Source: Polynucleobacter sp. MWH-Berg-3C6 (lineage in GTDB: Bacteria > Pseudomonadota > Gammaproteobacteria > Burkholderiales > Burkholderiaceae). From it: a stretch of 64,000 nt of DNA. The notes under the pieces are model-generated. The model did not search any database and had not been told where the DNA came from. It saw only the letters and a program-made list of their open reading frames with translations. The position numbers and the translations under genes were made by a program. Of this stretch, positions 2,843 to 13,102 are shown piece after piece. The DNA lies in the NCBI RefSeq assembly GCF_018881855.1, contig NZ_JACVPN010000004.1:1-64000 (forward strand). Reading direction: 5' to 3'. How positions within the stretch are numbered: position 1 is the first letter of the stretch; the number at the start of each line of letters is the position of its first letter.

Positions 2843-2891
2843 TTCTTGGTGGCCCGGGGCGGAATCGAACCACCGACACAAGGATTTTCAA
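2843..2891 (-). repeat. tRNA-Phe 3'-end duplicate (island attachment site)
   Basis: 49 bp identical to the 3' portion of the complete tRNA-Phe at 13023-13071. With that tRNA it bounds the integrase-bearing island. The island integrase is beside the tRNA, so this copy is the distal attachment site. The identity stops at 2892. Confidence 0.9.
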
Positions 2892-2948
2892 GACATTTGT
2901 TAGCGTAAGACGTATATTCTATATGCTTTAAATGTCTTTTTTGTGCTA

Positions 2949-2959
2949 TGTGTTATAGA
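2949..2959. repeat. Island-end repeat (possible integrase arm site), left
   Basis: TGTGTTATAGA occurs here, 58 bp inside the distal att copy, and again at 12978-12988, 35 bp inside the tRNA-proximal end. Partial forms (TGTGTTAAG, ACTGTGTAAAG) lie close by at both ends. Arm-type sites for tyrosine integrases are typically such short repeats near both ends, so this is inferred to be one. Confidence 0.45.
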
Positions 2960-3022
2960 CTGTGTTAAGCATACATCCTATATAATATAAGGATTTGCTG
3001 TCTGTTGGTTAAGTGTATCACG

Positions 3023-4360
3023 TCACTTAACAATAATCACCTCATCCTTACTCATCTTATCCACAGCATCAAATAATCTCTTATTACTGGTAATTCGTGC
3101 TTTCCAGTTCTTTGTACACATTAGCTCTTCTATTAAATGTAGGCAAGCTAATAGGTTTTTGGGCACAAATTGCTCTGCGTCTGCTTTGTCCAAAAATGCT
3201 AACTCATTAGCTTCTAACATTGCCCTTACATAAACCCACGTGTTGTGATGCGTTAAAAATGCTTGTGTCACATCATCAAAATTTACGCTACTGTATTTGT
3301 CGTATTTCACGTTTAAGTGTGACAGCTTTAACTTATCACCCAATGCTGATGGGAACGGGAAAGCAAACTCATCGCCACTATTTACATATATTTCGCCTTT
3401 TGGACAACGCACGGCACTTATTGCCCAGCTTTCCTCTTTGTTTGTAAATTTTGGGTAAACAGCAAGTTGCTCAAATTTGCCAGCAAGTATGTTTGGACTG
3501 GCACTATCAAAACTTACACGCAAGTTTGGATTAGTAGATTTACGCAACCCACGCTGTATAGCACTTAGGATTACAGCCCACTTTGTTTGTGAAACACCCA
3601 ATACGTGTAGCCAATCCATTCCTTTATCAAAAGCACCTTCGTCACGCATCATTAACACTTGCGTCACTACAGCCATACTGCCACCACGCCATCCCGTATC
3701 GCCAGCTAATGCCCAACCACCAAATCTATAACCTTTTACAGCATCCCACCACTGCTTCATATCTTTGCTGTTAGTGCCTTGTATAACGTTTAGCCACTTA
3801 GTGTTGCCACGTTTGTTTCTTTTAATAAATTCTAAGTTTTCAACCGTTAAATCAATTAACTGTTGGGTGCTACATTTGTGAAAAGGTGTTTTTTTGTTTT
3901 GTGGCAACTGTGCCCATAAAGGCATATCCAGCGTCATTGCGTAGTCGCTGTGTGTCTCTAACCAATTCACAATCCATTTTTTTAGCTGTGTTGCGTTTCT
4001 CCACGCTTCGCACACTTCGTCTGCTGTCTTTAGCTTATTGAGTGCTGTAAATCCAGCCAACGTGCCTTTGCCAATTTGAAAACCACCACTATCTCCCAAA
4101 ATGACTGTTTGCTTTTCATCACGTGTAGTCACCATATCACTTTGTGTTTCACCAATCTTAAATTGACCAGCACTATACAAGGCGTATTTGTAATGCCATA
4201 GCTTGTTTTTTGGGTTTATAAAATTAAGCGAACGCATAGTCACGTCTTTTGGCATTGTGCGTGTCTTATCGTCTGCCTTAATTGCTACCTTTGCGTAACT
4301 CTTTTGGATAGATGGCAAATAAACAGCAAAGTTATCCCAACGCTTATTAAAGTCGTCCAT
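3023..4360 (-). CDS. tRNA-guanine transglycosylase-like (DpdA-like) protein
   Basis: Protein of 445 residues with the tRNA-guanine transglycosylase (TGT) motifs in the canonical order: DSGGFQ (90-95, general-base Asp), TLDMP (143-147), VIQGT (192-196), GGWALAGD (214-221), LHVLGV (251-256) and FDSASP (284-289). The last corresponds to the segment with the nucleophilic Asp. The CxCxxC zinc cluster of bacterial TGT is not visible, and the protein is longer than the usual 370-385 residues. Divergent TGTs on phages and islands include DpdA, which inserts 7-deazaguanine bases into DNA, and a DpdA-like role is inferred. A tRNA or other nucleic-acid target is possible. It starts two bases after the upstream gene stops, with GGAGC as ribosome-binding site, so the two are translationally coupled. 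No 7-deazaguanine synthesis genes lie nearby, so any precursor would have to come from host queuosine metabolism. Confidence 0.7.
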   Translation of the reverse strand: MDDFNKRWDNFAVYLPSIQKSYAKVAIKADDKTRTMPKDVTMRSLNFINPKNKLWHYKYALYSAGQFKIGETQSDMVTTRDEKQTVILGDSGGFQIGKGTLAGFTALNKLKTADEVCEAWRNATQLKKWIVNWLETHSDYAMTLDMPLWAQLPQNKKTPFHKCSTQQLIDLTVENLEFIKRNKRGNTKWLNVIQGTNSKDMKQWWDAVKGYRFGGWALAGDTGWRGGSMAVVTQVLMMRDEGAFDKGMDWLHVLGVSQTKWAVILSAIQRGLRKSTNPNLRVSFDSASPNILAGKFEQLAVYPKFTNKEESWAISAVRCPKGEIYVNSGDEFAFPFPSALGDKLKLSHLNVKYDKYSSVNFDDVTQAFLTHHNTWVYVRAMLEANELAFLDKADAEQFVPKNLLACLHLIEELMCTKNWKARITSNKRLFDAVDKMSKDEVIIVK

Positions 4361-4362
4361 TC

Positions 4363-6021
4363 TTATGCTCCGTATGCTTGGAAGTGCTCTTCGTTACGTA
4401 TACCCTTGCTGTTTGTTGTAGGCACAGCAACGATATAGTCTGCGGACTTTGTTTTGTATTTGAAGATAACAGCGTTGTCATCTGTTTCTACTGTCACTCC
4501 ACCCACTAAGTCGCTATTCACAAATGAATTAAGCACTGGTATTACGTCTTTAGCCAACACTTCCACAGTAATTGCCTTTGTATTGCTTGCGTGTGTATAT
4601 CTAATAAATTCTTCTCTCGTATACCTATTGGCACGTTGGCAAAACTTAAACGTAATGCCAGTTTTGCCAAATGCCAAAGCAATCACAGCATATTCTTTAC
4701 GTTTAATGTTTTTACCCAAGCCATTTACCCACCTACTTAAAAACTCACCATTTAGTTCAGCCAACCACTTTGCGTCTAATTTGGCTGTATGAACAGCTTT
4801 GAATTTCATTCCACGTTTAAGTATTGCTTGCTGTCTACTTGCTTCTGTTTTAGGGACAGTGAGTGGGTAAAAGCGAATATAGCGATACTTTTTAGTGAGT
4901 GTGTTTTCTAACTCCAGCTTATATGTTGCTATCTCACCCTTAATTGCTTTTACTTTCGTAGGTGCGTCTGTCGTATAAAAGTTCACGTCACCACTATGTA
5001 TTAAGTTGTCTTCTATGTATGTTCTATCGTTTATTGCCAAAAACACATCTTTATTACCATCAATAATTTGCTTTTTTGGTATTGCGATAGTGACTGGACT
5101 ACACGTGCTACGGCTGGCACTTAAAACAAACACACGCTTCTCTGCCATATACAACAAACGCTTAAGCATCATCATTGCTGTGCCATCATCTGCTTTGAAT
5201 TTGCTTTTATCTGCCAAAGAACGCGATAGGCTTTCTAATGGTTTGGGCACAGTTTGCGTACTAATAATTTCAGTTATTAAACGTACTGTGTAAGGTACGC
5301 TATCAGTGCTACGTGCGTATGAACTTATTAATGCTTGCTCAATTAGCTCTTTATCGTCAATTGCCTTTAATAGCTCATACCCATTCTTTGTCTTTCTAAA
5401 CAACCCTAAACCAATTGAGCTATCTGCTGTAGGCAATGAATGTGTGCTTTGAAACTTAGAAATAGGTGTGGCACTTTTTGCGTAATAAGCGAACCCTTTA
5501 GCCAAATGCTCTTCGTGTCGCTTTTTCTCTACGTTTAAGTCTACTTTTGCTTTTTTCTGTTTTGGCTCTTTAGCTACGTCTACTTGGGTACTGTCATAAG
5601 CTGCCAATCCCCTTATGCCACCTTTAGTGTCTATATACGTAATGATTTTTTGAACTGTGTTTTGCTTGTAAAACGCTTTGTCTGCGTTTACGGCACCATT
5701 CACTTTGTTTAATGCTCTATTCCACAAGTCAATCGTGTTGCTATTAACTGTGCCATCCATACCCCACAAGTAACGCAATAAGGGAGAGTAATTTTCATCA
5801 GCTTTAATCTCTTTTTTGTACTGTATGCCATTGTCTTTGTAGAGCTTCTCCAGCAAACCCTTTTCCTTATTGGCTTCTTGCCACCACAAATAGACTTTAG
5901 CCAATCCCTCATAAAGCATATTGCGTGAACTTACGTACATATGCGACTGTTTGTCAGCAAGCTCTTTTAACTGTGCCAGTTCTTTTTGTAGCTTGCTCTT
6001 TAAGGTTTGTTTTGTAGCCAT
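4363..6021 (-). CDS. Large uncharacterised protein, partner of TGT-like gene
   Basis: I do not recognise this 552-residue protein. The N-terminal 150 residues are helical and charged, with an aromatic LAKVYLWWQEAN segment and, later, KGGIRGLA. A basic lysine-rich linker (around residues 150-175) follows, then a mixed alpha/beta region. The last 80 residues (ITVEVLAKDVIPVLNSF, then AVIFKYKTKSADYIVAVPT) look like the alternating strands of a sliding-clamp-type domain. That is a weak structural impression, not a family match. The ATG at 6021 has GAGGGA eight bases upstream and is preferred over a TTG two codons earlier. It heads a two-gene operon with the transglycosylase-like gene and is divergent from the restriction endonuclease gene across about 125 bp. 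Confidence 0.6.
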   Translation of the reverse strand: MATKQTLKSKLQKELAQLKELADKQSHMYVSSRNMLYEGLAKVYLWWQEANKEKGLLEKLYKDNGIQYKKEIKADENYSPLLRYLWGMDGTVNSNTIDLWNRALNKVNGAVNADKAFYKQNTVQKIITYIDTKGGIRGLAAYDSTQVDVAKEPKQKKAKVDLNVEKKRHEEHLAKGFAYYAKSATPISKFQSTHSLPTADSSIGLGLFRKTKNGYELLKAIDDKELIEQALISSYARSTDSVPYTVRLITEIISTQTVPKPLESLSRSLADKSKFKADDGTAMMMLKRLLYMAEKRVFVLSASRSTCSPVTIAIPKKQIIDGNKDVFLAINDRTYIEDNLIHSGDVNFYTTDAPTKVKAIKGEIATYKLELENTLTKKYRYIRFYPLTVPKTEASRQQAILKRGMKFKAVHTAKLDAKWLAELNGEFLSRWVNGLGKNIKRKEYAVIALAFGKTGITFKFCQRANRYTREEFIRYTHASNTKAITVEVLAKDVIPVLNSFVNSDLVGGVTVETDDNAVIFKYKTKSADYIVAVPTTNSKGIRNEEHFQAYGA

Positions 6022-6145
6022 TAGCAATCCCTCATTGATAAATTAATTACTGCTTGAGAGAGATTATCATTTTTATAGGCACTTTTAGCACTTCGTTGTT
6101 GGTTTTGGAATAAGATGCTCTTAATCACAAGCCAAAAATAACAAT

Positions 6146-7258
6146 ATGTCCTTAATTGATTTAGCAAAAGCAAATCAAATTCTCACTTTAGCTGTTTCAA
6201 AAGGGAATGAGATATTACAAACAAACAACGCACCAACTTATGGTGACTCCACTGTTTGCGAAGATTTTTTAGTGTCACTACTAAAGGATGCGTGTATTTC
6301 GCTTGGGGTTGACGCAAACCTTATTACACATCATCGCGGACACTCATTTCCAGACGTAACTATTAGCAACACTCCTTTTGGTATTGAAATAAAAGGGGCT
6401 AAAGCACATAGGTCATTTAACGGCAATAGCGTAATAGCAAGCACAATGAAAACTGGATTAAAAAAGGTTTTCTTAATGTATTGGATTGGCGATGACAAGG
6501 AGGTTGGGTTTCGCGACTATTTTGAATGTGTTGCTACACCTGTAGTTACTCATTCGCCACGCTTTCAATTGGATATTGATTTAGATTCAAGTAAATCAAT
6601 GTTTGGTACTGGCGAAGGCAAAGTAGGGCTGGTGGATGACATTATTTTTGGTGGCAAAAGCGTTAACTCAGAAAAAATAATTCAATGGATGGCAAACAAA
6701 GCAAAAGCAAAAGGTGAAACGCCGTGGTGGATATCAACAGATGAATCATTGCCTATTGGCTCAACGGGCTTAAGCAAGTTTACAAACCTCTCTATTGAAG
6801 ACAGAAATAGTTTCTTAAAAGAGGCTCTTTTAGCTTTTCCCAAAATATTTGATAAGACATCCAATACAAAATACAACGGGATTTTTGAATGGGCAATTCA
6901 AAAGAAATCTATATACACAAAACGAGATGACTACTCTGCTGGTGGCAAAGTGGAAATTAAAATTCCCACTTTTTCGCAAGATGCTTTATTGGTTCCACAA
7001 GTAATACAAGTAGCAACAAATGTATTCAAAAGTAATAGCAAGGTTTTTATTAATGAATTGGAAAATTCAACCCCCAACCAATTCCAAACAGCACAAGCCT
7101 TTTTGGATGCTTATAAGCTGGCACTAAGCAAAAACCTTTTACATATATATAAGGATGTAAAAGACAAAGATGAGAACAATGTTGGCAAGGACGAGTTTGC
7201 TTCTATGCTTGCCACCTACCTAATCTCTAAAATTAACGTAACCACGTTAATTGTTTAA
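6146..7258 (+). CDS. Type II restriction endonuclease (PD-(D/E)XK)
   Basis: Predicted DNA-cleaving partner of the adjacent cytosine methyltransferase. A nuclease core is visible as FPDV (PD at 69-70) followed after ten residues by EIKG (E81, K83), the PD-(D/E)XK arrangement. The region before it contains CEDFLVSLLKDAC, helix-rich as in such enzymes. The rest of the 370 residues matches no family I can name, so the recognition sequence is unknown. Its stop codon abuts that of the methyltransferase gene with no gap (convergent). The ATG lacks a good ribosome-binding site, which would keep endonuclease expression low. Assignment as endonuclease rests on the nuclease motif and the neighbouring methyltransferase. 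Confidence 0.75.
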   Translation: MSLIDLAKANQILTLAVSKGNEILQTNNAPTYGDSTVCEDFLVSLLKDACISLGVDANLITHHRGHSFPDVTISNTPFGIEIKGAKAHRSFNGNSVIASTMKTGLKKVFLMYWIGDDKEVGFRDYFECVATPVVTHSPRFQLDIDLDSSKSMFGTGEGKVGLVDDIIFGGKSVNSEKIIQWMANKAKAKGETPWWISTDESLPIGSTGLSKFTNLSIEDRNSFLKEALLAFPKIFDKTSNTKYNGIFEWAIQKKSIYTKRDDYSAGGKVEIKIPTFSQDALLVPQVIQVATNVFKSNSKVFINELENSTPNQFQTAQAFLDAYKLALSKNLLHIYKDVKDKDENNVGKDEFASMLATYLISKINVTTLIV

Positions 7259-8506
7259 CTATCTCTTCTTAAACAACTCATCCCAAATTTCATCCACTCT
7301 TTGTGCCAATCTATAGGCTAATAGAGGTGGGACAGCGTTGCCAATTAGCCTATAACCATCAGACGCAGAAAGTTTATTTGGGATTACAAACTCATAGTCG
7401 TTTGGAAATGTTTGTATCCTCGCACACTCCCTTACAGTCAATCTTCTTTGCTGTAATCCTTTTGCTAATTCCTCTAAATTCTTTCCACCATTTGCTTTGT
7501 TCAATCTTCTAAATTCAATGTTGCCGTGATGTTCAGCACGAATGGTTGGACCAGCACCCAATAAGTTTACTTCTGCTTGTCCTTGTAATTTTTTACCAAT
7601 ATATTTTGCTTTTGAATATGCTTGTTGCGACAAATCCTTGCTCAACTCTGGCTCTTTAAGCCCAGCGAATGCTGCCTTTGTAGTGCTTATAGGCAATATC
7701 TTTCTACCATCGCTTGTTTGATTTCCGTGCGTTTGTAAAGGATATGGATTAAGCGTATCTGGCAATGTGCCGTGTTTATCTACATATCGCAATACATCAG
7801 CCTTCAATTTTTGCTTATTGATTCCTATGAAAATAACTCGTTCGCGTGTTTGTGGAATTCCATAGTGCGTAGCATTCAAAACTTTAACTGGAACAACTAT
7901 GTATGAGCTTCCATCAATTGACGCAAAGTCTTTTTCAATTACTGCTTTGGCATCACCAAGTGATACCAAGCCTTTAACATTTTCAGCATAAAATATTTTT
8001 GGTTTTACTTGTGCGACATACTCACGCATCCAGTAATAAAGCATTCCGCGATTTTCTGCTGTTGGGTCTTCATTGTCTTGTAACAACTTTCTATTGCCCA
8101 AATGGCTTTTATCAGAATTGAAGCCAAGTCTTTTTCCAGCAACACTAAAGTCATTACAAGGAAATCCACCCGTTACAACGTCTATATCTTTTAAGTTTTT
8201 GCGTTTGCCAGCTTTAATATCTTTAACAATATCAACAATGCTTTCCGCTTCGTAAACGCCAGTTACGTCTCTCTTTTTACTAAAGTAAGAGTTCCACGCT
8301 TCTTTTGCTTTGTGGTTTACATCGCAAGCAAACACAGTTTCAAACCCTAAACTGTCTAACTTTACAAACCCACTTTTATCAGCTTTCTTTACTAAATGTT
8401 GTTCTGTTGAATTTAGGCAAGACTTATGAACTTCGAAGTCACCTTCAAAGCCAATATCCATTCCACCACAACCAGAAAATAAAGAAGCTACCTTGCGTTT
8501 ATTCAT
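7259..8506 (-). CDS. DNA (cytosine-5) methyltransferase
   Basis: C5-cytosine DNA methyltransferase of 415 residues, expected to protect host DNA from the convergent endonuclease. Motifs seen: SLFSGCGGMDIGF (8-20, AdoMet binding), GGFPCNDFS (113-121, catalytic Cys117; the site reads PCN instead of the more common PCQ), YAENVKGL (motif VI, Glu175), PQTRERVIF, and near the C terminus RECARIQTFP and RLIGNAVPP (motifs IX and X). The full motif set and length indicate an intact enzyme. It is the standard 5-methylcytosine type with a target-recognition region between residues 240 and 340. The target site cannot be deduced. Confidence 0.93.
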   Translation of the reverse strand: MNKRKVASLFSGCGGMDIGFEGDFEVHKSCLNSTEQHLVKKADKSGFVKLDSLGFETVFACDVNHKAKEAWNSYFSKKRDVTGVYEAESIVDIVKDIKAGKRKNLKDIDVVTGGFPCNDFSVAGKRLGFNSDKSHLGNRKLLQDNEDPTAENRGMLYYWMREYVAQVKPKIFYAENVKGLVSLGDAKAVIEKDFASIDGSSYIVVPVKVLNATHYGIPQTRERVIFIGINKQKLKADVLRYVDKHGTLPDTLNPYPLQTHGNQTSDGRKILPISTTKAAFAGLKEPELSKDLSQQAYSKAKYIGKKLQGQAEVNLLGAGPTIRAEHHGNIEFRRLNKANGGKNLEELAKGLQQRRLTVRECARIQTFPNDYEFVIPNKLSASDGYRLIGNAVPPLLAYRLAQRVDEIWDELFKKR

Positions 8507-8542
8507 TGTTTTATATATTAATTTTTATTGATTATATGATGC

Positions 8543-9214
8543 TTAAGCTAACTCCACAGCCTTACGTTTCATATCATCATTAACGTCTATGTAAGATTGG
8601 GTTGTACTAATATTTTTGTGTCCAGCCAAACTTGCCAATACACGTACACCCACCCCTTGCGTAGCTAAGTTAGTAATAAACGTTCTACGTCCACTATGGC
8701 TACTTGCTCCATCTATTCCACTGCGTTTGTATAGATAGTGAAAAAACTGCGTTAATGTGTTCGCTGTAAAGCCACCACCAGCACTATGACGCTTTTGACT
8801 ATAGAAAAACTTAGTCTCTCTATTTGCTGGTTTGTACACAACAATGTATTTCTCAAATTCTTTACGTAGTTTGTCATTTACAAATACAGTTCTTGCTTCA
8901 TTAGTTTTGGTGTTTTCAGCAATTAAGCGTATTTCGTTCTTAACTGTGCCATCTTCATTTACTACGTCGCAATAACGTAGCGACGCTACCTCTCCAACTC
9001 TCATACCACTTAAAAAGGTGGTGTACAGCAAACAACGATTGCGTAAGCTGTGTTTGCGTGTAGCCGTGTAATCTAAAACTTTGCGTAATTCGTTTTGGTT
9101 TAGTGTTTTTGCTTGCTTTGCCATAGTTTTTTTTCCCAAATAAAGGTTTGCTATAGCTATATGTTGTTTTCTTTGTTTATTTTTTCCTACCTCTTTTTGC
9201 CAAAAAGTTGTCAT
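8543..9214 (-). CDS. Small tyrosine recombinase
   Basis: Tyrosine recombinase/phage integrase catalytic domain of 223 residues. The catalytic set is complete: R72 (SGMRVGE), H173 and R176 (HSGRR), H199 (LAGHKN) and nucleophile Y208 (QSYIDV). The N-terminal DNA-binding arm is very short, unlike the main integrase of this island. The start at 9214 was chosen because GGAGG lies eight bases upstream. A later ATG at 9124 would still keep the catalytic domain. It may resolve or invert island DNA, or regulate excision. It is followed by the methyltransferase gene after 36 bp on the same strand. Confidence 0.85.
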   Translation of the reverse strand: MTTFWQKEVGKNKQRKQHIAIANLYLGKKTMAKQAKTLNQNELRKVLDYTATRKHSLRNRCLLYTTFLSGMRVGEVASLRYCDVVNEDGTVKNEIRLIAENTKTNEARTVFVNDKLRKEFEKYIVVYKPANRETKFFYSQKRHSAGGGFTANTLTQFFHYLYKRSGIDGASSHSGRRTFITNLATQGVGVRVLASLAGHKNISTTQSYIDVNDDMKRKAVELA

Positions 9215-9665
9215 TTGTAAAACCTCCATTTTTATATGCTTAAAGTGCGAAATTCGCTGTTTTTGAACCAAAACCAAAGCTCTTAACTAAAACCTTTGGT
9301 TTCTTATTTAGCTGTTTTTGTCGTCTAAATCCCACTTAAAAGCACAGACTTGTTAAAAGCGTCTACGTGCTTTTACCCCTACCCCCCGTATGTTTGCTAT
9401 TACTTGGTGGCTTTTAAGTGCTTACAGCGTTGATTTGACGTGTTTACTATGCGTAGCGACGAGAGGAGAAGGTTTTGAAGCAATCAGCACCCCTCAATCC
9501 AAAATGAAATGATTTGTCCTTTATTTCATTTCCCACTTAATTTCTATTAATCAGAGATTCTTTATTTTTAGCTGTTTTTATCTTTCTGCTCTTTAGTTAA
9601 ATTTAACCAAAGCAATATAACTACCCATTGCGTCCAATAGGTAGCCATAAAAACTAAACACAACT
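9215..9665. other. Noncoding stretch with inverted repeats, possible origin
   Basis: No gene is apparent. Overlapping inverted repeats are present: CACTTAAAAGC at 9333-9343 pairs with GCTTTTAAGTG at 9410-9420, and AAAAGCAC at 9338-9345 also pairs with GTGCTTTT at 9367-9374. A C-run (CCCCTACCCCCC) lies between them. Next to a possible replication protein gene, such a stretch could be an element origin, but this is only inferred. Confidence 0.4.
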
Positions 9666-10190
9666 TCAGTCAATGTTTAGTGCGTTGTAGGGGATTTGAG
9701 TGTTCTCAAAATCCCAACAACTTAAGTTTCCAAATTGCGTTTCTTTAGTGCCGTACTGTAATAAGTGTGATTGAGTGTTAGCTAACGGTTCTGTAATGTA
9801 TATGTCGTCTTTTTGATGTGCTTTTTCTACCCAACAGTAAGTCCATAGTATTTTTATGTCGTTCGTAGTTAGTACTGTTGGTATGTTGCCTAAATAGATG
9901 TTGTAGTGAAGTGTGTGTTTTGGACTTGTTGTCTGTTTGGTGCCTTCTAAAGTTGGTATTAGTAGTGGTTGATATGTAAGTGGTTTGCGTTTAGCTCCAT
10001 TCCCAAAAAGCTCTTTATTAAAGCAATTACGTGCGTGCCGTAAATCCTTAATTAAGGTGGTTCTCATACGCTCAATTTCCCAATCCTCTTTTTGGTACGT
10101 ATGAAAATGACTTTGGGCAACTACATAGTGGGTAATATGCTTTTGCTGTTTGTCCAAAAAGTCTCTTATTGTGTTTGCTGTAATTCGCAT
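9666..10190 (-). CDS. Uncharacterised island protein, possibly Rep-like
   Basis: Protein of 174 residues. The middle has PKHTLHYNIYLGN (His92 and His95) and further on WTYCWVEKAHQ, IYITEPL and LQYGTKE (Tyr146). The spacing, a His-pair strand followed by a late Tyr-x-x-Lys, recalls small rolling-circle Rep or inovirus-type replication proteins. The histidine pair is H-x-x-H rather than the standard H-hydrophobic-H, so the match is weak. The ATG at 10190 was chosen over an in-frame TTG at 10211. It is divergent from the DUF6641-like gene, and the noncoding repeat-rich stretch lies downstream. Confidence 0.4.
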   Translation of the reverse strand: MRITANTIRDFLDKQQKHITHYVVAQSHFHTYQKEDWEIERMRTTLIKDLRHARNCFNKELFGNGAKRKPLTYQPLLIPTLEGTKQTTSPKHTLHYNIYLGNIPTVLTTNDIKILWTYCWVEKAHQKDDIYITEPLANTQSHLLQYGTKETQFGNLSCWDFENTQIPYNALNID

Positions 10191-10326
10191 ACTTTTATTT
10201 ATGCGAACCAAAGGAAATCAATTAATTTTCTTGTCAAATCATTTGGTTTGACTGGCAAATATAGGTTGCCCAATCCGTTTTTCTGGTACTAAATTAAGTG
10301 TGCCCATTAACTTATAGGAGAACGAT

Positions 10327-10773
10327 ATGAGCACACTTAGCACTTTGAAATTGGTTACAAGCAAGAAACATCAAACTGTCGCACCCATTGTTTTACGTCG
10401 AAATAAGCTCTGTGCCAAATTGGATGAACAGCTTGCTTTATGCGAGGCACAAAAGGCTGGCAATACTTACGCACCCAAACGCTTAAAGACTTTTGTAAAC
10501 AAGCAAACTGGTGAACGTATGACAGCTGAAGTAGCAAAGCGTATAAAAGAATGGTTTTGGGTAAGCCACACAACTGGAAAAATCAATTTAGCTGTTAAGT
10601 ATGGCGCTAAAACACTACCCCTTAATAAAAAGGGTGCTAACGCAATTGAACTTAGCAATGGTGATGAACTAATCAGCACACTTAAGTCACTAAAGATGAT
10701 GGTGGCTAATGGTGAATTAGATGATGCTATGAATGAAGTAAGCACAGCAACACGCGAAGCGTTTAATAAGTGA
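10327..10773 (+). CDS. DUF6641-like conserved island protein
   Basis: Basic protein of 148 residues resembling, from memory, the DUF6641 family found in mobile regions of Burkholderiales. Recognisable pieces are LSTLKLV near the start, PIVLRRNKL, the Lys/Arg-rich APKRLKTF and KRIKEWFWVS, and AVKYGAKTLPL. No catalytic motif is visible, and the function is unknown. ATAGGAGAACGAT precedes the ATG, an excellent ribosome-binding site. Two more small genes follow on the same strand after a 14-bp inverted repeat, and the three genes seem to travel together. Confidence 0.6.
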   Translation: MSTLSTLKLVTSKKHQTVAPIVLRRNKLCAKLDEQLALCEAQKAGNTYAPKRLKTFVNKQTGERMTAEVAKRIKEWFWVSHTTGKINLAVKYGAKTLPLNKKGANAIELSNGDELISTLKSLKMMVANGELDDAMNEVSTATREAFNK

Positions 10774-10777
10774 TTTT

Positions 10778-10818
10778 ATTTACGTGCCCCATCTAATATG
10801 TATTTGGGGCACGTAAAT
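10778..10818. repeat. 14-bp perfect inverted repeat
   Basis: ATTTACGTGCCCCA at 10778-10791 is followed, after 13 bases, by its exact complement TGGGGCACGTAAAT at 10805-10818. It lies 5 bp after the DUF6641-like stop codon and before the next small gene. No T-run follows, so it is more likely an RNA-stability hairpin or protein site than a standard terminator. Confidence 0.65.
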
Positions 10819-10839
10819 GTAATAAACAATAAATACTGT

Positions 10840-10986
10840 ATGAAACGATACAAAGCTACAGTAAATGCGAGTGGAATGTGGATAGAAACTATCTTGTATG
10901 CCCAAAATCAAGCACAGGCATATAAATTATTTCAAACAATATTTGGAAGTGGCAATGTGCCTCATCAGCCCACACAACTTGGATGA
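10840..10986 (+). CDS. Small conserved island protein (48 aa)
   Basis: Protein of 48 residues starting MKRYKATVNASGMWIET. The pattern of a short strand, a GMW turn and a helix (AQAYKLFQTIFGSGNV) suggests a compact folded domain and recalls small proteins that accompany DUF6641-like genes. No function is known to me. The ATG at 10840 was chosen over an upstream ATG at 10798 that would run through the inverted repeat. It is immediately followed by another small gene. Confidence 0.5.
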   Translation: MKRYKATVNASGMWIETILYAQNQAQAYKLFQTIFGSGNVPHQPTQLG

Positions 10987-10987
10987 T

Positions 10988-11167
10988 ATGAAGATACTTG
11001 AAATAACAACAATAAAGCCTTTAACTCCACAGCAAGCACGTATAGATGGACTTAAGCGACAAAAGGAAGCTAGTACGAAAGCACTACAAGCTGAGCGTGA
11101 TAGGCAAAAGGTTGCTAAAGCACAGCAAACGATTGCCAATACCAAAAACAATCAATCAACTTTGTAG
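10988..11167 (+). CDS. Small charged helical island protein (59 aa)
   Basis: Protein of 59 residues with a short hydrophobic start (MKILEITTIKPLTPQQARIDGL) followed by a Lys/Arg/Gln-rich helix (KRQKEASTKALQAERDRQK) that could be a coiled coil or nucleic-acid-binding helix. It begins one base after the preceding gene stops, with GGATG at the junction. Its 3' end overlaps the convergent HEPN-like gene by 16 bases. Function unknown; similar short proteins seem to accompany DUF6641-like genes. Confidence 0.5.
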   Translation: MKILEITTIKPLTPQQARIDGLKRQKEASTKALQAERDRQKVAKAQQTIANTKNNQSTL

Positions 11168-11604
11168 CCAATCCCAATCTCTTTTCTTTGTGCCGTTCGT
11201 AAAGCATTTAATTCTTTTGCCAAATTTAATGCTCTATCTGCCATTTCTTTGTCAAACTCATCTAACCTCCACATAGCACCGTGTAGCAAACTATTCCTTG
11301 CTTTAATTTCAGCCTCTATTTTCTTTGCCGTAGCTAACGGAATGGTTTTCTTTTTTTCCAAATAATTTATATATTTCATCATTACGTCACGTGGGTTCTT
11401 TGTAATTGCTATCTCACCCGTTTCCACTCTTTTAGCAACTACGTACATTGAAAATACTCTGTCTTCAATAATGCTAAAAGCCGTAACGTAAGCCGCTATA
11501 TAAATTTCATCGTTTATTGACTTGTTAATAAGGCTAAATGCTTTACGCAAATTAATATGAACTTGTTTTCGTGCTTCTGCCGTATCGCCTATAGGACGTG
11601 CCAT
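11152..11604 (-). CDS. HEPN-like all-helical protein
   Basis: Helical protein of 150 residues. Near the C terminus ARNSLLHGAMW (R103 to H108) matches the R-polar-x(3)-H signature of HEPN domains, many of which are RNases in toxin-antitoxin and abortive-infection systems. The preceding helix AAYVTAFSIIEDRVFSMY fits the first HEPN helix. No separate antitoxin (for example a MNT nucleotidyltransferase) is next to it, so a toxin role is only a possibility. It has AGGGGTAGCA directly before the ATG and lies 21 bp after the integrase gene on the same strand. Confidence 0.5.
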   Translation of the reverse strand: MARPIGDTAEARKQVHINLRKAFSLINKSINDEIYIAAYVTAFSIIEDRVFSMYVVAKRVETGEIAITKNPRDVMMKYINYLEKKKTIPLATAKKIEAEIKARNSLLHGAMWRLDEFDKEMADRALNLAKELNALRTAQRKEIGIGYKVD

Positions 11605-11625
11605 TGCTACCCCTATTTTAGATAA

Positions 11626-12903
11626 TTACTGTTTATCAGAGATTATGGGTTTTACAGGTTTATGCTTGCCCATTCGTTTGCCTGCTAATTGGTTAGCTAC
11701 GTGTGCGGGTGTTACGTGTCCATAATATTGTTCAATCATCTTAACGCTTGTGCCCATTTGTTTGGATAGCTTAAATATGTCTATTCCTTCTTCCAGTATT
11801 GCCAAATGTGCGTATGTATGTCGCAAGCTATACAGCGTCTTTTGCTTGCTGCCTTTCTTATTCAAACCACTATCACGCATTAAGTGTCTAAACGTAGCAC
11901 CTAAGTTTTCTGTTGTTGTGCCATCACGCAACCTAAATACAAATTCATCCACACCCTTTTTAATTAAGTTATCAAAACTTAGCTTACTAATAGCTGGGTC
12001 ACGCAACTGTATGCGTTCCAAATAATCTTGTGTGTTGTGCCTTGCTATTAACGTGCGTTCACCCCTTTTGCCATTAACTGTGAACTGTAAATAACGCTTT
12101 CCATCTGTTGTAATCCAACGTATGTCTTTCCATTTAAGCCCCAATGCCTCTGTGCCGTGTCGCATTCCCGTATTCGCAAGCACTAATACGTAATCACGCA
12201 ACAATTCACGCATATCTTTAGTTCTTTGTGTATGCCCTTGCTTACTCCACTTCGTCATATAACTGGTAAGACTCTTATATTCACTTTTGCTAAATGCGGG
12301 ACGTGGGACGCTTTTAGCTCCATCATTGCGTAGGTTGGGCAAATGAACTTTGCTCATATACCCCATATCTATTGCGTATTCCAATACACGATTTATTGTT
12401 GAGTTGTGATTGGTAATGGTTGAAGCACGTGGCTTTTTACCCATTTCTTTTTCACGCCATTCGTCAAATTTTGTAAGTGCTTCGTAATCTATGCCATTTA
12501 CGTTATATTTTTCAAAAAATGGGATGAGATATTTGTTAATAACAGCAATGTAGGTTTGGTAAACAACTTTGCCACCACCACCATTCAATTCGTCTTGTAA
12601 TTGCTTTGCCACTACTTTTGCTACAGCACCAAATTTCTTACTTGTAATAACAATGTCTTCGTCTGCCAAAAACCTTGCTCTATCAAATGCTTCGCAAGCT
12701 ACTTTGCCAGCCCAATCTACGTTACGCTCTTTTGTGCTTACTCTATGCCACTTATTAAATAGCTTGTAACGTGCTTGCCATTTGTCGCTGTTCTCTCTTT
12801 TGTAGAGCACAACGTCACCATCACGCAAATGAACAAGCGTGTCGCTGATGGCAACAGATTTAACTTTTGATTGTTTGTGTGGGACAGCGTTTTTGGTTGG
12901 CAT
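11626..12903 (-). CDS. Island tyrosine integrase
   Basis: Phage-type integrase of 425 residues that would recombine the tRNA-Phe attachment sites. N-terminal arm-binding and core-binding regions (about 1-200) precede the catalytic domain. Catalytic residues are R248 (NTGMRHG), R361-H362 (YSLRHTYAH) and the Tyr pair 393-394 (EQYYGHV). The position usually held by the second His (as in MGHSS) reads MGTSV, a variation tolerated in some integrases. It sits 120 bp from the tRNA-Phe 3' end, the normal position for an integrase that uses this site. Confidence 0.92.
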   Translation of the reverse strand: MPTKNAVPHKQSKVKSVAISDTLVHLRDGDVVLYKRENSDKWQARYKLFNKWHRVSTKERNVDWAGKVACEAFDRARFLADEDIVITSKKFGAVAKVVAKQLQDELNGGGGKVVYQTYIAVINKYLIPFFEKYNVNGIDYEALTKFDEWREKEMGKKPRASTITNHNSTINRVLEYAIDMGYMSKVHLPNLRNDGAKSVPRPAFSKSEYKSLTSYMTKWSKQGHTQRTKDMRELLRDYVLVLANTGMRHGTEALGLKWKDIRWITTDGKRYLQFTVNGKRGERTLIARHNTQDYLERIQLRDPAISKLSFDNLIKKGVDEFVFRLRDGTTTENLGATFRHLMRDSGLNKKGSKQKTLYSLRHTYAHLAILEEGIDIFKLSKQMGTSVKMIEQYYGHVTPAHVANQLAGKRMGKHKPVKPIISDKQ

Positions 12904-12977
12904 ACGGACAGCAAAGCCTTGTAAACATTGAATGTAATGTTTTACAGCGTATACCCAAATTAAAACTGTGTAAAGAG

Positions 12978-12988
12978 TGTGTTATAGA
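12978..12988. repeat. Island-end repeat (possible integrase arm site), right
   Basis: Second copy of TGTGTTATAGA, in the 120-bp gap between the integrase start and the tRNA-Phe. It partly overlaps an inverted repeat, GTGTTA with TAACAC. It is paired with 2949-2959 at the other end. Confidence 0.45.
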
Positions 12989-13026
12989 ATTTTGTAACAC
13001 ATTATCGGGCTGAGAGCCTTTATTCT

Positions 13027-13102
13027 TGGTGGCCCGGGGCGGAATCGAACCACCGACACAAGGATTTTCAATCCTCTGCTCTACCGACTGAGCTACCAGG
13101 CC
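13027..13102 (-). tRNA. tRNA-Phe (GAA)
   Basis: Read on the minus strand, 76 nt fold as a complete tRNA: acceptor GGCCTGG paired with CCGGGCC, D arm GCTC...GAGC, anticodon loop TTGAAAA (anticodon GAA, Phe), T arm GGTGG-TTCGATT-CCGCC, discriminator A and an encoded CCA. Its 3' 49 bp serve as the integration site of the island. No strong terminator follows its present 3' end; the likely original one is now at 2813-2837. Confidence 0.97.

Follow-up and report, generated by a model that had tools for sequence, protein, structure and literature searches.

Introduction

How do DNA transglycosylases reach guanines that lie within double-stranded DNA? To our knowledge this has not been settled, and the question is raised in compact form by two adjoining genes of Polynucleobacter sp. 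MWH-Berg-3C6. The window analyzed here, the whole stretch of 64,000 nt at the start of contig NZ_JACVPN010000004.1, contains a 10.2-kb island (2843-13071) with ends formed by a perfect 49-nt direct repeat at a tRNA-Phe gene. The island encodes P0001, on its model an enzyme of the tRNA-guanine transglycosylase (TGT) fold, and P0002, the window's member of a partner family termed P2 here, which is predicted to contain a sliding-clamp fold. An earlier reading, made from the sequence only, had suggested that this pair may place a deazaguanine base in DNA and that the larger protein may guide, clamp or further process. Its observations were right, and its interpretation was right in outline and is supported in part; the surprising part is the clamp. 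Judged from folds, residues, linkage and context, the pair is probably a clamp-tethered DNA-guanine transglycosylase that uses a 7-deazaguanine made by the host.

The transglycosylase-fold protein

The sequence-only reading placed P0001 in the TGT superfamily on five ordered motifs (DSGGFQ, VIQGT, GGWALAGD, LHVLGV and FDSASP), all of which are present in the translation of its open reading frame (ORF), and named structure prediction and profile searches as a check. Ten island proteins were scanned with four family libraries, Pfam, PADLOC, NCBIfam and PHROGs. Neither P0001 nor P0002 matched a Pfam, PADLOC or NCBIfam family at E ≤1; the Pfam TGT model (PF01702) left P0001 unmatched at E up to 1, and PHROGs tied it weakly to phrog_10773, the DpdA2 family (hmmscan E 0.19). 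The AlphaFold model of P0001, based on 59 relatives, has a mean predicted local distance difference test score (pLDDT) of 93.1. Plain Foldseek returned TIM-barrel enzymes with weak scores, xylanases on top, and after re-alignment of Foldseek's 1000 best chains with VIA the 50 best rows were all TGTs, headed by 2ash (Z 21.2, root-mean-square deviation (rmsd) 4.5, 307 residues aligned). A profile search of PDB sequences with the family listed 13 entries, all of them TGTs, at weak E values from 0.43, and profile comparison (hhalign) with the canonical TGT of the host gave a probability of 69 in one alignment and 86.5 in another. The motifs fall into register in this comparison: FDE, IVQGG, GGLSVGE, YLMGVG and FDCVMPTR of the host enzyme correspond to LDM, VIQGT, GGWALAGD, HVLGVS and FDSASP of the P0001 family, and DSGGFQ is likewise in register. 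On its model, P0001 is a TGT-fold enzyme that the canonical tRNA TGT family does not match.

All 59 members of the family alignment have D90, D145 and D285, and 58 have Q194. These residues we take to be the catalytic Asp pair and the base-binding Asp and Gln, roles assigned by analogy with the Zymomonas mobilis TGT. The CxCxxC zinc site, already reported missing from the window protein, is present in none of the 59, although H372 is kept in 58 and N373 in 57, and the PTR segment that follows the catalytic Asp is replaced by ASP in P0001. Invariance of the three aspartates together with uniform loss of CxCxxC means that the motif observation is not due to chance. Thus catalysis and base recognition look intact in P0001, which has lost two features of the tRNA enzymes, their zinc site and PTR segment.

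The predicted clamp fold of the partner

As the sequence-only reading had it, a 552-residue protein stands beside the TGT: the gene for P0002 comes first, with a gap of 2 nt to the ATG of P0001, and an alternative TTG start is possible two codons before its own ATG. Residues 241-539 of P0002 are predicted to adopt the two-domain sliding-clamp fold of the PCNA superfamily, which fits the earlier suggestion that the large protein may clamp. The model, built from 22 sequences, has a mean pLDDT of 82.8 and a predicted template modeling score (pTM) of 0.64, with one poor stretch at residues 142-165. Foldseek against the PDB gave 385 matches below 0.001, and the 50 shown were all Rad9-Rad1-Hus1 or PCNA entries, the best being a chain of the human Rad9-Hus1-Rad1 complex (E 7e-8, probability 1.00). 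The best VIA row (Z 14.3, rmsd 3.5) aligned 234 residues within 241-537, and by their titles all 50 rows shown are clamps, one beta clamp included. Among viral structures the three best matches are proteins of 235-239 aa, two from uncultured Caudovirales phages and one nameless, followed by PCNA and beta-subunit proteins. PHROGs linked P0002 weakly to two families of unknown function (E 0.053 and 0.26).

The predicted fold of this region is that of PCNA and Rad9-Hus1-Rad1; P0002 differs from these in a helical N-terminal extension of ~200 residues and in its low identity (~10%). No polymerase or loader was recognized on the island, unlike the setting of PCNA clamps. Bacterial clamps are of the three-domain beta type, unlike the PCNA-like ones.

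Recurrence of the pair in bacteria

A scan of genome contigs found 33 loci, to which the window and an Azospirillum plasmid were added; of the resulting 35, seven were excluded because they were contig ends, fragments or virus-like contigs, which left 28 to be counted. The neighborhood survey proposed in the sequence-only reading shows that the pair recurs, for a P2-type gene is present in 27 of the 28 bacterial loci, and the exception (L036) ends 46 nt past the TGT gene. L031 has a partial P2-type gene, 1.8 kb from the TGT gene, another ORF separates the two in L009, and the TGT of L020 is present though overlooked by the gene caller. Three P2 types can be told apart: P2a, the window type, in 12 loci, P2b in 13 and P2c in 2. 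P2a and P2b align over 503 columns (hhalign probability 96, E 4e-9), P2b and P2c more weakly (probability 75.5), and P2a and P2c not at all by profile comparison; structure was predicted for the window protein. A survey of 300 genomes from the order found TGT in two and P2 in those same two, and among 369 of the class P2 was found in the window's own genome only. The distances between TGTs and those between P2 proteins are correlated (r 0.90, 13 loci, Mantel p 0.0005), against 0.15 for TGT and Int2, a small recombinase, over 12 loci.

Several neighbors of the pair are of interest in their own right. Vut/YhhQ-type genes and C4-family genes each occur in 7 of the 28 loci. Five Roseobacter-group loci (L032-L035, L037) line up four genes, for a Vut/YhhQ-type transporter, a glycosyltransferase-like protein, TGT and P2; a MASE1 histidine kinase is encoded upstream, and often there is also a LuxR-type response regulator. 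The P2b genes of L019, L020, L021 and L023 encode ~270 additional C-terminal residues with a DDDAVLM stretch; this extra domain resembles a GT-A glycosyltransferase by eye only, and Pfam (L019, L023) and the PDB (L019) gave no match. A 277-aa protein is encoded convergently with TGT in L016 (6244-7068) and L017 (11234-12064). The L016 copy resembles an OGG-like 8-oxoguanine DNA glycosylase below the cut-off (PF21790, E 0.013), a resemblance of interest next to a guanine-swapping enzyme, and the L017 copy does not match this family. Four related loci share cluster C13 (L019 16106-17491), a 461-aa protein without a Pfam match that contains PHLHAII and by eye is perhaps an HUH replication initiator.

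Such a gene content could also belong to an element that looks after itself. The pair would then serve in its replication or transfer and would modify chiefly the DNA of the element while this is copied or moves, to pass restriction in a new host. TGT, P2, Int2 and often a DUF6641 gene recur while other genes vary, and by eye the C13 protein looks like a replication protein; in the Roseobacter-group loci, however, TGT and P2 are accompanied by a transporter and a glycosyltransferase-like gene instead. This account overlaps the clamp-tethered transglycosylase preferred here, from which it differs only in target, and we regard it as quite unlikely.

Viral relatives

By tblastn, relatives of P0001 were found in Pseudomonas aeruginosa jumbo phages of the PA5oct group, Sinorhizobium phage Phosso and Vibrio phage 2.275.O, and weak relatives in Pseudomonas putida phages of the Peetri group. 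Members of the TGT family are common among large viruses: an IMG/VR scan gave at least 595 relatives, and the 80 best were retained. In 76 of these 80 loci the TGT gene is preceded on its strand, by no more than 1.5 kb, by a clamp-like gene of the phrog_12062 type, and in 65 the two lie within 400 nt of each other; where at least 2.5 kb of upstream sequence is available the gene is present in 73 of 74 (the exception is L059). For the Vibrio phage copy of this gene, PHROGs gave a match to the family of DNA polymerase processivity factors (E 7e-5). Two records of phrog_12062 relatives are annotated as PCNA or sliding clamp, most others as hypothetical or structural protein, and no confident Pfam match was obtained. 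Since two phages have the clamp with no TGT recognized and the Phosso clamp lies apart from the TGT gene, the phrog_12062-type protein is probably the phage's own replication clamp. Downstream, 42 viral loci have at least 5 kb of sequence, and FolE is encoded in 32 of these and QueE in 31.

The viral enzymes also carry a characteristic end. Most viral polymerases terminate in peptides such as NTFNKLFDFE, and a polymerase-like peptide (NTFGSLFEVE, FNSLFDV) is found in 75 of 84 viral TGT tails against 15.3 in shuffles, by a permissive pattern that was drawn up after the tails had been viewed and in rows that are related and thus not independent cases. Other viral ORFs of at least 150 aa fit the pattern in 134 of 823 cases (92.9 expected), and where FxxLF stands at the very end, 71 of 72 are matched by the polymerase profile. 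The tails of viral C4 proteins contain the peptide in 2 of 60 (shuffles 6.1). The viral TGT tail peptides resemble the clamp-binding tails of T4-type polymerases; gp43 of phage nt-1 ends in LESFFG.

QueC was matched in 2 of 24 hand-picked viral records (21 virus contigs and 3 phages), one match being partial, which suggests that the viral base may be a QueC-free precursor, though the records could be fragments. Two further neighbors were considered. A 125-aa protein present in 41 of the 42 loci with room may be QueD-like by eye, but hhalign against nt-1 QueD gave a probability of 0.4 and Pfam nothing. C4-family genes, likewise present in 41 of the 42, had suggested a glycosylated base, a reading that was set aside; their assignment as glycosyltransferases is weak, two members matching PF00534 below the cut-off (E ~0.001) and two others not matching it. 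The DNA polymerase gene of PA5oct is itself split (L002 1611-6837), with an intein-like domain at the end of the first part and a homing endonuclease gene after it.

This viral setting bears on the substrate. If P0001 acted on RNA, either tRNA or another host RNA, its clamp-fold partner would be an RNA-binding or scaffold protein; the structural list consists entirely of tRNA enzymes, and P0001 and P0002 are both basic (pI 9.2 and 9.6). We give this little credence, given the family-wide loss of CxCxxC and the change of PTR to ASP, the canonical TGT that the host already has, the DNA polymerase and clamp-like genes beside the viral relatives and the predicted DNA-clamp fold of the partner. Context thus supports DNA rather than tRNA as the likely substrate of P0001, in line with the deazaguanine in DNA that the sequence-only reading had suggested.

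Relation to DpdA and other clamp-associated enzymes

By profile comparison the P0001 family is distantly related to DpdA2 (hhalign probability 96, E 2e-9, 187 columns; against Peetri, probability 98), but no direct match to 9g DpdA or nt-1 DpdA2 was found, and comparison with one 9g sequence gave a probability of 0.3. DpdA2 (nt-1 YP_008125322, phrog_10773) is of the same TGT superfamily and is found in phages beside preQ0 genes; the DNA of nt-1 contains dPreQ0, dADG and dG+ (PMC6884629). It differs in that tblastn with the family member of Vibrio phage 2.275.O does not find nt-1, while 2.275.O and PA5oct are not among the matches listed for nt-1 DpdA2, and gp45 of nt-1 lies ~26 kb from dpdA2. 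In a tree, five DpdA2 and 64 family rows formed separate clades (100/100) joined by long branches, for which a long-branch warning applies. The P2a loci grouped together, the P2b loci lay next to Phosso and L059, and two P2c rows from Azospirillum stood apart. Membership of P0001 in DpdA2 (nt-1, KVP40, pf16, X1, Moby) is accordingly not favored, as the protein is related by profile, has none of these among its listed tblastn matches and is separate in the tree. On these comparisons the TGT family appears distinct from, yet distantly related to, DpdA2.

The DpdA of 9g-type phages is a DNA transglycosylase (PMC6884629). Six such phages were hand-picked from 236 and 70 records, which is not a census. 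In 9g, JG054, KurtStettler, BP15 and RHEph04, dpdA adjoins, or lies at most two small ORFs from, a clamp gene followed by a polymerase gene; in Nadezda, one of the six, dpdA is not beside such genes. The enzymes end in LQDLFDE (9g), IQELF (JG054), VMELF (KurtStettler) and EQRLF (RHEph04), BP15 DpdA has TQGLF only past an internal stop, and Nadezda DpdA has no such end; two of five DpdA2 proteins end in SLEELFG and SLDDLFG, and three do not. The motif that binds bacterial beta clamps is QL(S/D)LF. The 9g-type enzymes therefore share with the viral relatives a gene placed by clamp and polymerase genes and -LF ends, in five of the six, and differ in having no detectable sequence similarity, in bringing their own synthesis genes and in a clamp annotated as polymerase beta subunit.

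The PA5oct jumbo-phage protein is a direct relative of P0001 (25% identity, E 8e-40). A deazaguanine synthesis and incorporation system has been described in PA5oct, along with such systems in several bacteria (Iyer et al. 2021; PMC7824862). The phage version differs in its separate clamp gene and C-terminal peptide, and the passages of that paper on these systems name no clamp partner and no islands. An enzyme unrelated to P0001, the T4 alpha-glucosyltransferase, offers a parallel as a base-modifying enzyme on a replication clamp: it binds gp45 and acts on hydroxymethylcytosine, and its modification ratio is set mostly by expression and not by clamp binding (PMC13216743). A description of a transglycosylase-clamp pair was not found in the literature searched, the coverage of which was largely without subscription journals.

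Bacterial dpd systems combine dpdA with dpdB, dpdC and restriction genes. In agreement with the sequence-only reading, no dpd or queuosine-synthesis family was recognized among the ten island proteins in the four libraries, and the host genome encodes QueC, QueF and a canonical TGT.

Proposed mechanism

In the mechanism that we propose, P0002 would keep P0001 on double-stranded DNA in the manner of a sliding clamp, and P0001 would swap chosen guanines for a 7-deazaguanine base from the host's queuosine pathway. Asp285 would form the covalent intermediate of the reaction, Asp90 would act as general acid/base, and the host would supply preQ0, preQ1 or an earlier precursor. DNA that carries the island, or takes it up, would thereby be marked in an epigenetic or anti-restriction sense; DNA as the substrate, the nature of the base, the contact between the two proteins and the protective purpose are each put forward here by way of inference. 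As the window TGT is without a viral-type tail, a direct, lasting complex of P0001 and P2 is the simplest reading. Support comes from the TGT fold with its conserved residues, the predicted clamp fold, the linkage and co-variation of the two genes and the viral context of replication and deazaguanine genes. Further support is drawn from the Vut/YhhQ-type genes in 7 of the 28 bacterial loci, from the dpdA genes near clamp genes in five of the six 9g-type phages and from the host's QueC, QueF and TGT.

A number of observations weigh against this proposal. TGTs lead the structural list for P0001 only after VIA re-alignment, plain Foldseek putting GH10 xylanases first. The clamp link of P2 rests on predicted structure, because sequence methods are weak or empty: hhalign of P2 with the viral clamps gave a probability of 12 (E 0.0024, C-terminus aligned to C-terminus), a search of PDB sequences with P2 profile A4 recovered no clamp, and an assignment from sequence was dropped for these reasons. 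The four helices that would likely line a channel are not basic (net charge 0, -2, 0 and 0; a fifth stretch, 435-445, has +3), just 5 of the 12 P2a proteins are clearly basic overall, and no clamp loader was recognized among the ten island proteins in the four libraries. The window TGT tail has no match to the viral tail peptide, and although 11 of 27 bacterial tails fit the loose pattern (4.5 in shuffles), they do so at different places of the protein end. The viral clamp also occurs without or apart from the TGT, as described above, and the bacterial TGT genes are not one clade in the tree. Finally, the TGT correlates, less strongly, with DUF6641 (0.62, 9 loci) and Int1, the island integrase (0.55, 7 loci), so that shared island descent accounts for part of the co-variation.

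A bolder extension can be offered tentatively, although we think it rather doubtful as a whole. The bacterial islands would have captured a PCNA-like clamp that is joined to a helical module and serves a DNA transglycosylase alone, which would give processive base replacement in cells with a clamp of another type; three distant families of DNA transglycosylases would separately have adopted replication clamps as tethers; and the island form may target the replisomes of invading phages.

The island and its restriction-modification genes

The features of the island are collected in Table 1. That it is integrative, as the sequence-only reading had proposed, agrees with its repeats at tRNA-Phe and its integrase, Int1. 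The GC content is 0.36-0.40 within the island against ~0.44-0.46 in the flanks, with 0.40 just before the distal end. On the minus strand the order from the tRNA is Int1, small genes including that for the DUF6641 protein, Int2, the C5 methyltransferase, P0002 and P0001; the type II restriction endonuclease-like gene lies on the strand opposite to the methyltransferase. Int2 has 50% identity to the copy on Azospirillum pAB510d, and its start codon is uncertain, homology beginning at residue 54.

Table 1. Positions, strands and basis of assignment of the island features in the window.
Feature	Position	Strand	Basis
att repeat copy, 49 nt, distal island end	2843-2891		Perfect direct repeat with 13023-13071
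TGT-fold protein P0001, predicted DNA-guanine transglycosylase, 445 aa, ATG	3023-4360	-	Fold model, motifs, invariant D90/D145/D285, no zinc cysteines
Partner P0002 (P2), 552 aa from ATG: helical N-terminal part and predicted sliding-clamp fold	4363-6021	-	Predicted structure
Predicted sliding-clamp (PCNA-like) fold, P0002 residues 241-539	4405-5301	-	VIA-align best row Z 14.3
Type II restriction endonuclease-like protein, probable cargo	6146-7258	+	PADLOC REase_II E 1.1e-10
C5-cytosine DNA methyltransferase, probable cargo	7259-8506	-	PF00145 E 1.9e-50; PADLOC type II methyltransferase E 3e-72
Int2, small Xer-like tyrosine recombinase recurring near TGT/P2	8543-9277	-	PF00589 E 3.5e-28; in 21/28 loci
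181-aa protein	9666-10211	-	ORF; no confident family in four libraries
DUF6641/phrog_31551 protein, recurrent in related islands	10327-10773	+	Family match; in 10/28 loci
89-aa protein, relative of 99-aa protein in island L130	10898-11167	+	tblastn 49% over 41 residues, E 7e-8
150-aa protein, relative in L009 (cluster C22)	11152-11604	-	Clustering of loci
Int1, island integrase, tyrosine recombinase with SAM-like domain	11626-12903	-	PF00589 E 2.3e-7; PF13102 E 5.4e-6
att repeat copy overlapping tRNA-Phe (13027-13102, -)	13023-13071		Perfect direct repeat with 2843-2891

The sequence-only reading set the pair on a restriction-modification (R-M) island. The type II R-M pair is real, but it is not a stable part of the system. 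Island L130, from a one-contig genome, has relatives of TGT, P2, Int1, Int2, the DUF6641 protein and the 89-aa protein; tblastn found in it no relative of the window endonuclease or methyltransferase, and seven of its other proteins have no PADLOC match or R-M Pfam family. Genes of the methyltransferase cluster occur in 5 of the 28 bacterial loci, and in L015 a BsaWI-type endonuclease and a methyltransferase adjoin the pair. With no R-M relatives in L130 and other R-M genes in L015, these genes are probably changing cargo, and the R-M association was rejected as a core feature.

This finding also bears on a defensive role in which P2, as a captured clamp of viral type, would join or sense the replisome of an invading phage, so that the TGT marks or damages phage DNA, for instance for restriction by a neighboring gene. 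In its favor are the PCNA-like fold of P2, where bacterial clamps have three domains, the size of its three best viral structure matches, the R-M genes that some islands carry and the occurrence of the TGT family in large viruses as well. No conserved effector nuclease was recognized beside the pair, however, PADLOC names neither protein, and the R-M genes are as inconstant as just described. We hold this role to be unlikely, and retain the clamp-tethered transglycosylase fed by the host as the preferred explanation.

Repeats elsewhere in and around these islands deserve mention. A third att-like copy lies at 129-181 of the window: L007 1605-1657 matches it at 98% over 53 nt, matches 13022-13071 at 100% over 50 nt and also extends across the copy at 2843-2891. 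On account of this third copy, 129-2891, which holds genes for an OprB porin and a protein of 257 aa, may form a second unit. A sequence of 31-36 nt occurs in imperfect copies (77-78% pairwise) at gene boundaries of the island (6044-6079, 9538-9568 and 11623-11658), perhaps as cassette edges or recombination sites. In L130 a palindromic AAAACC...GGTTTT repeat (5348-5377, 8954-8983 and 12098-12127) flanks the TGT-P2 unit and the next segment, and its copies are candidate terminators or recombinase sites. For the short intergenic repeats of both the window and L130, a reading as recombination sites is suggestive.

Significance

These results add a widespread viral enzyme family, as well as two protein families without a confident model in the four libraries, and the pair may be of use as a small tool with which to introduce modified guanines into DNA. 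As a two-gene unit of a transglycosylase and a clamp-fold protein, it makes a simple answer to the opening question testable, namely that the enzyme is tethered by a clamp. If true, this would account for the position of several phage dpdA genes next to those for clamp and polymerase, and for the clamp-type peptides at the ends of their products.

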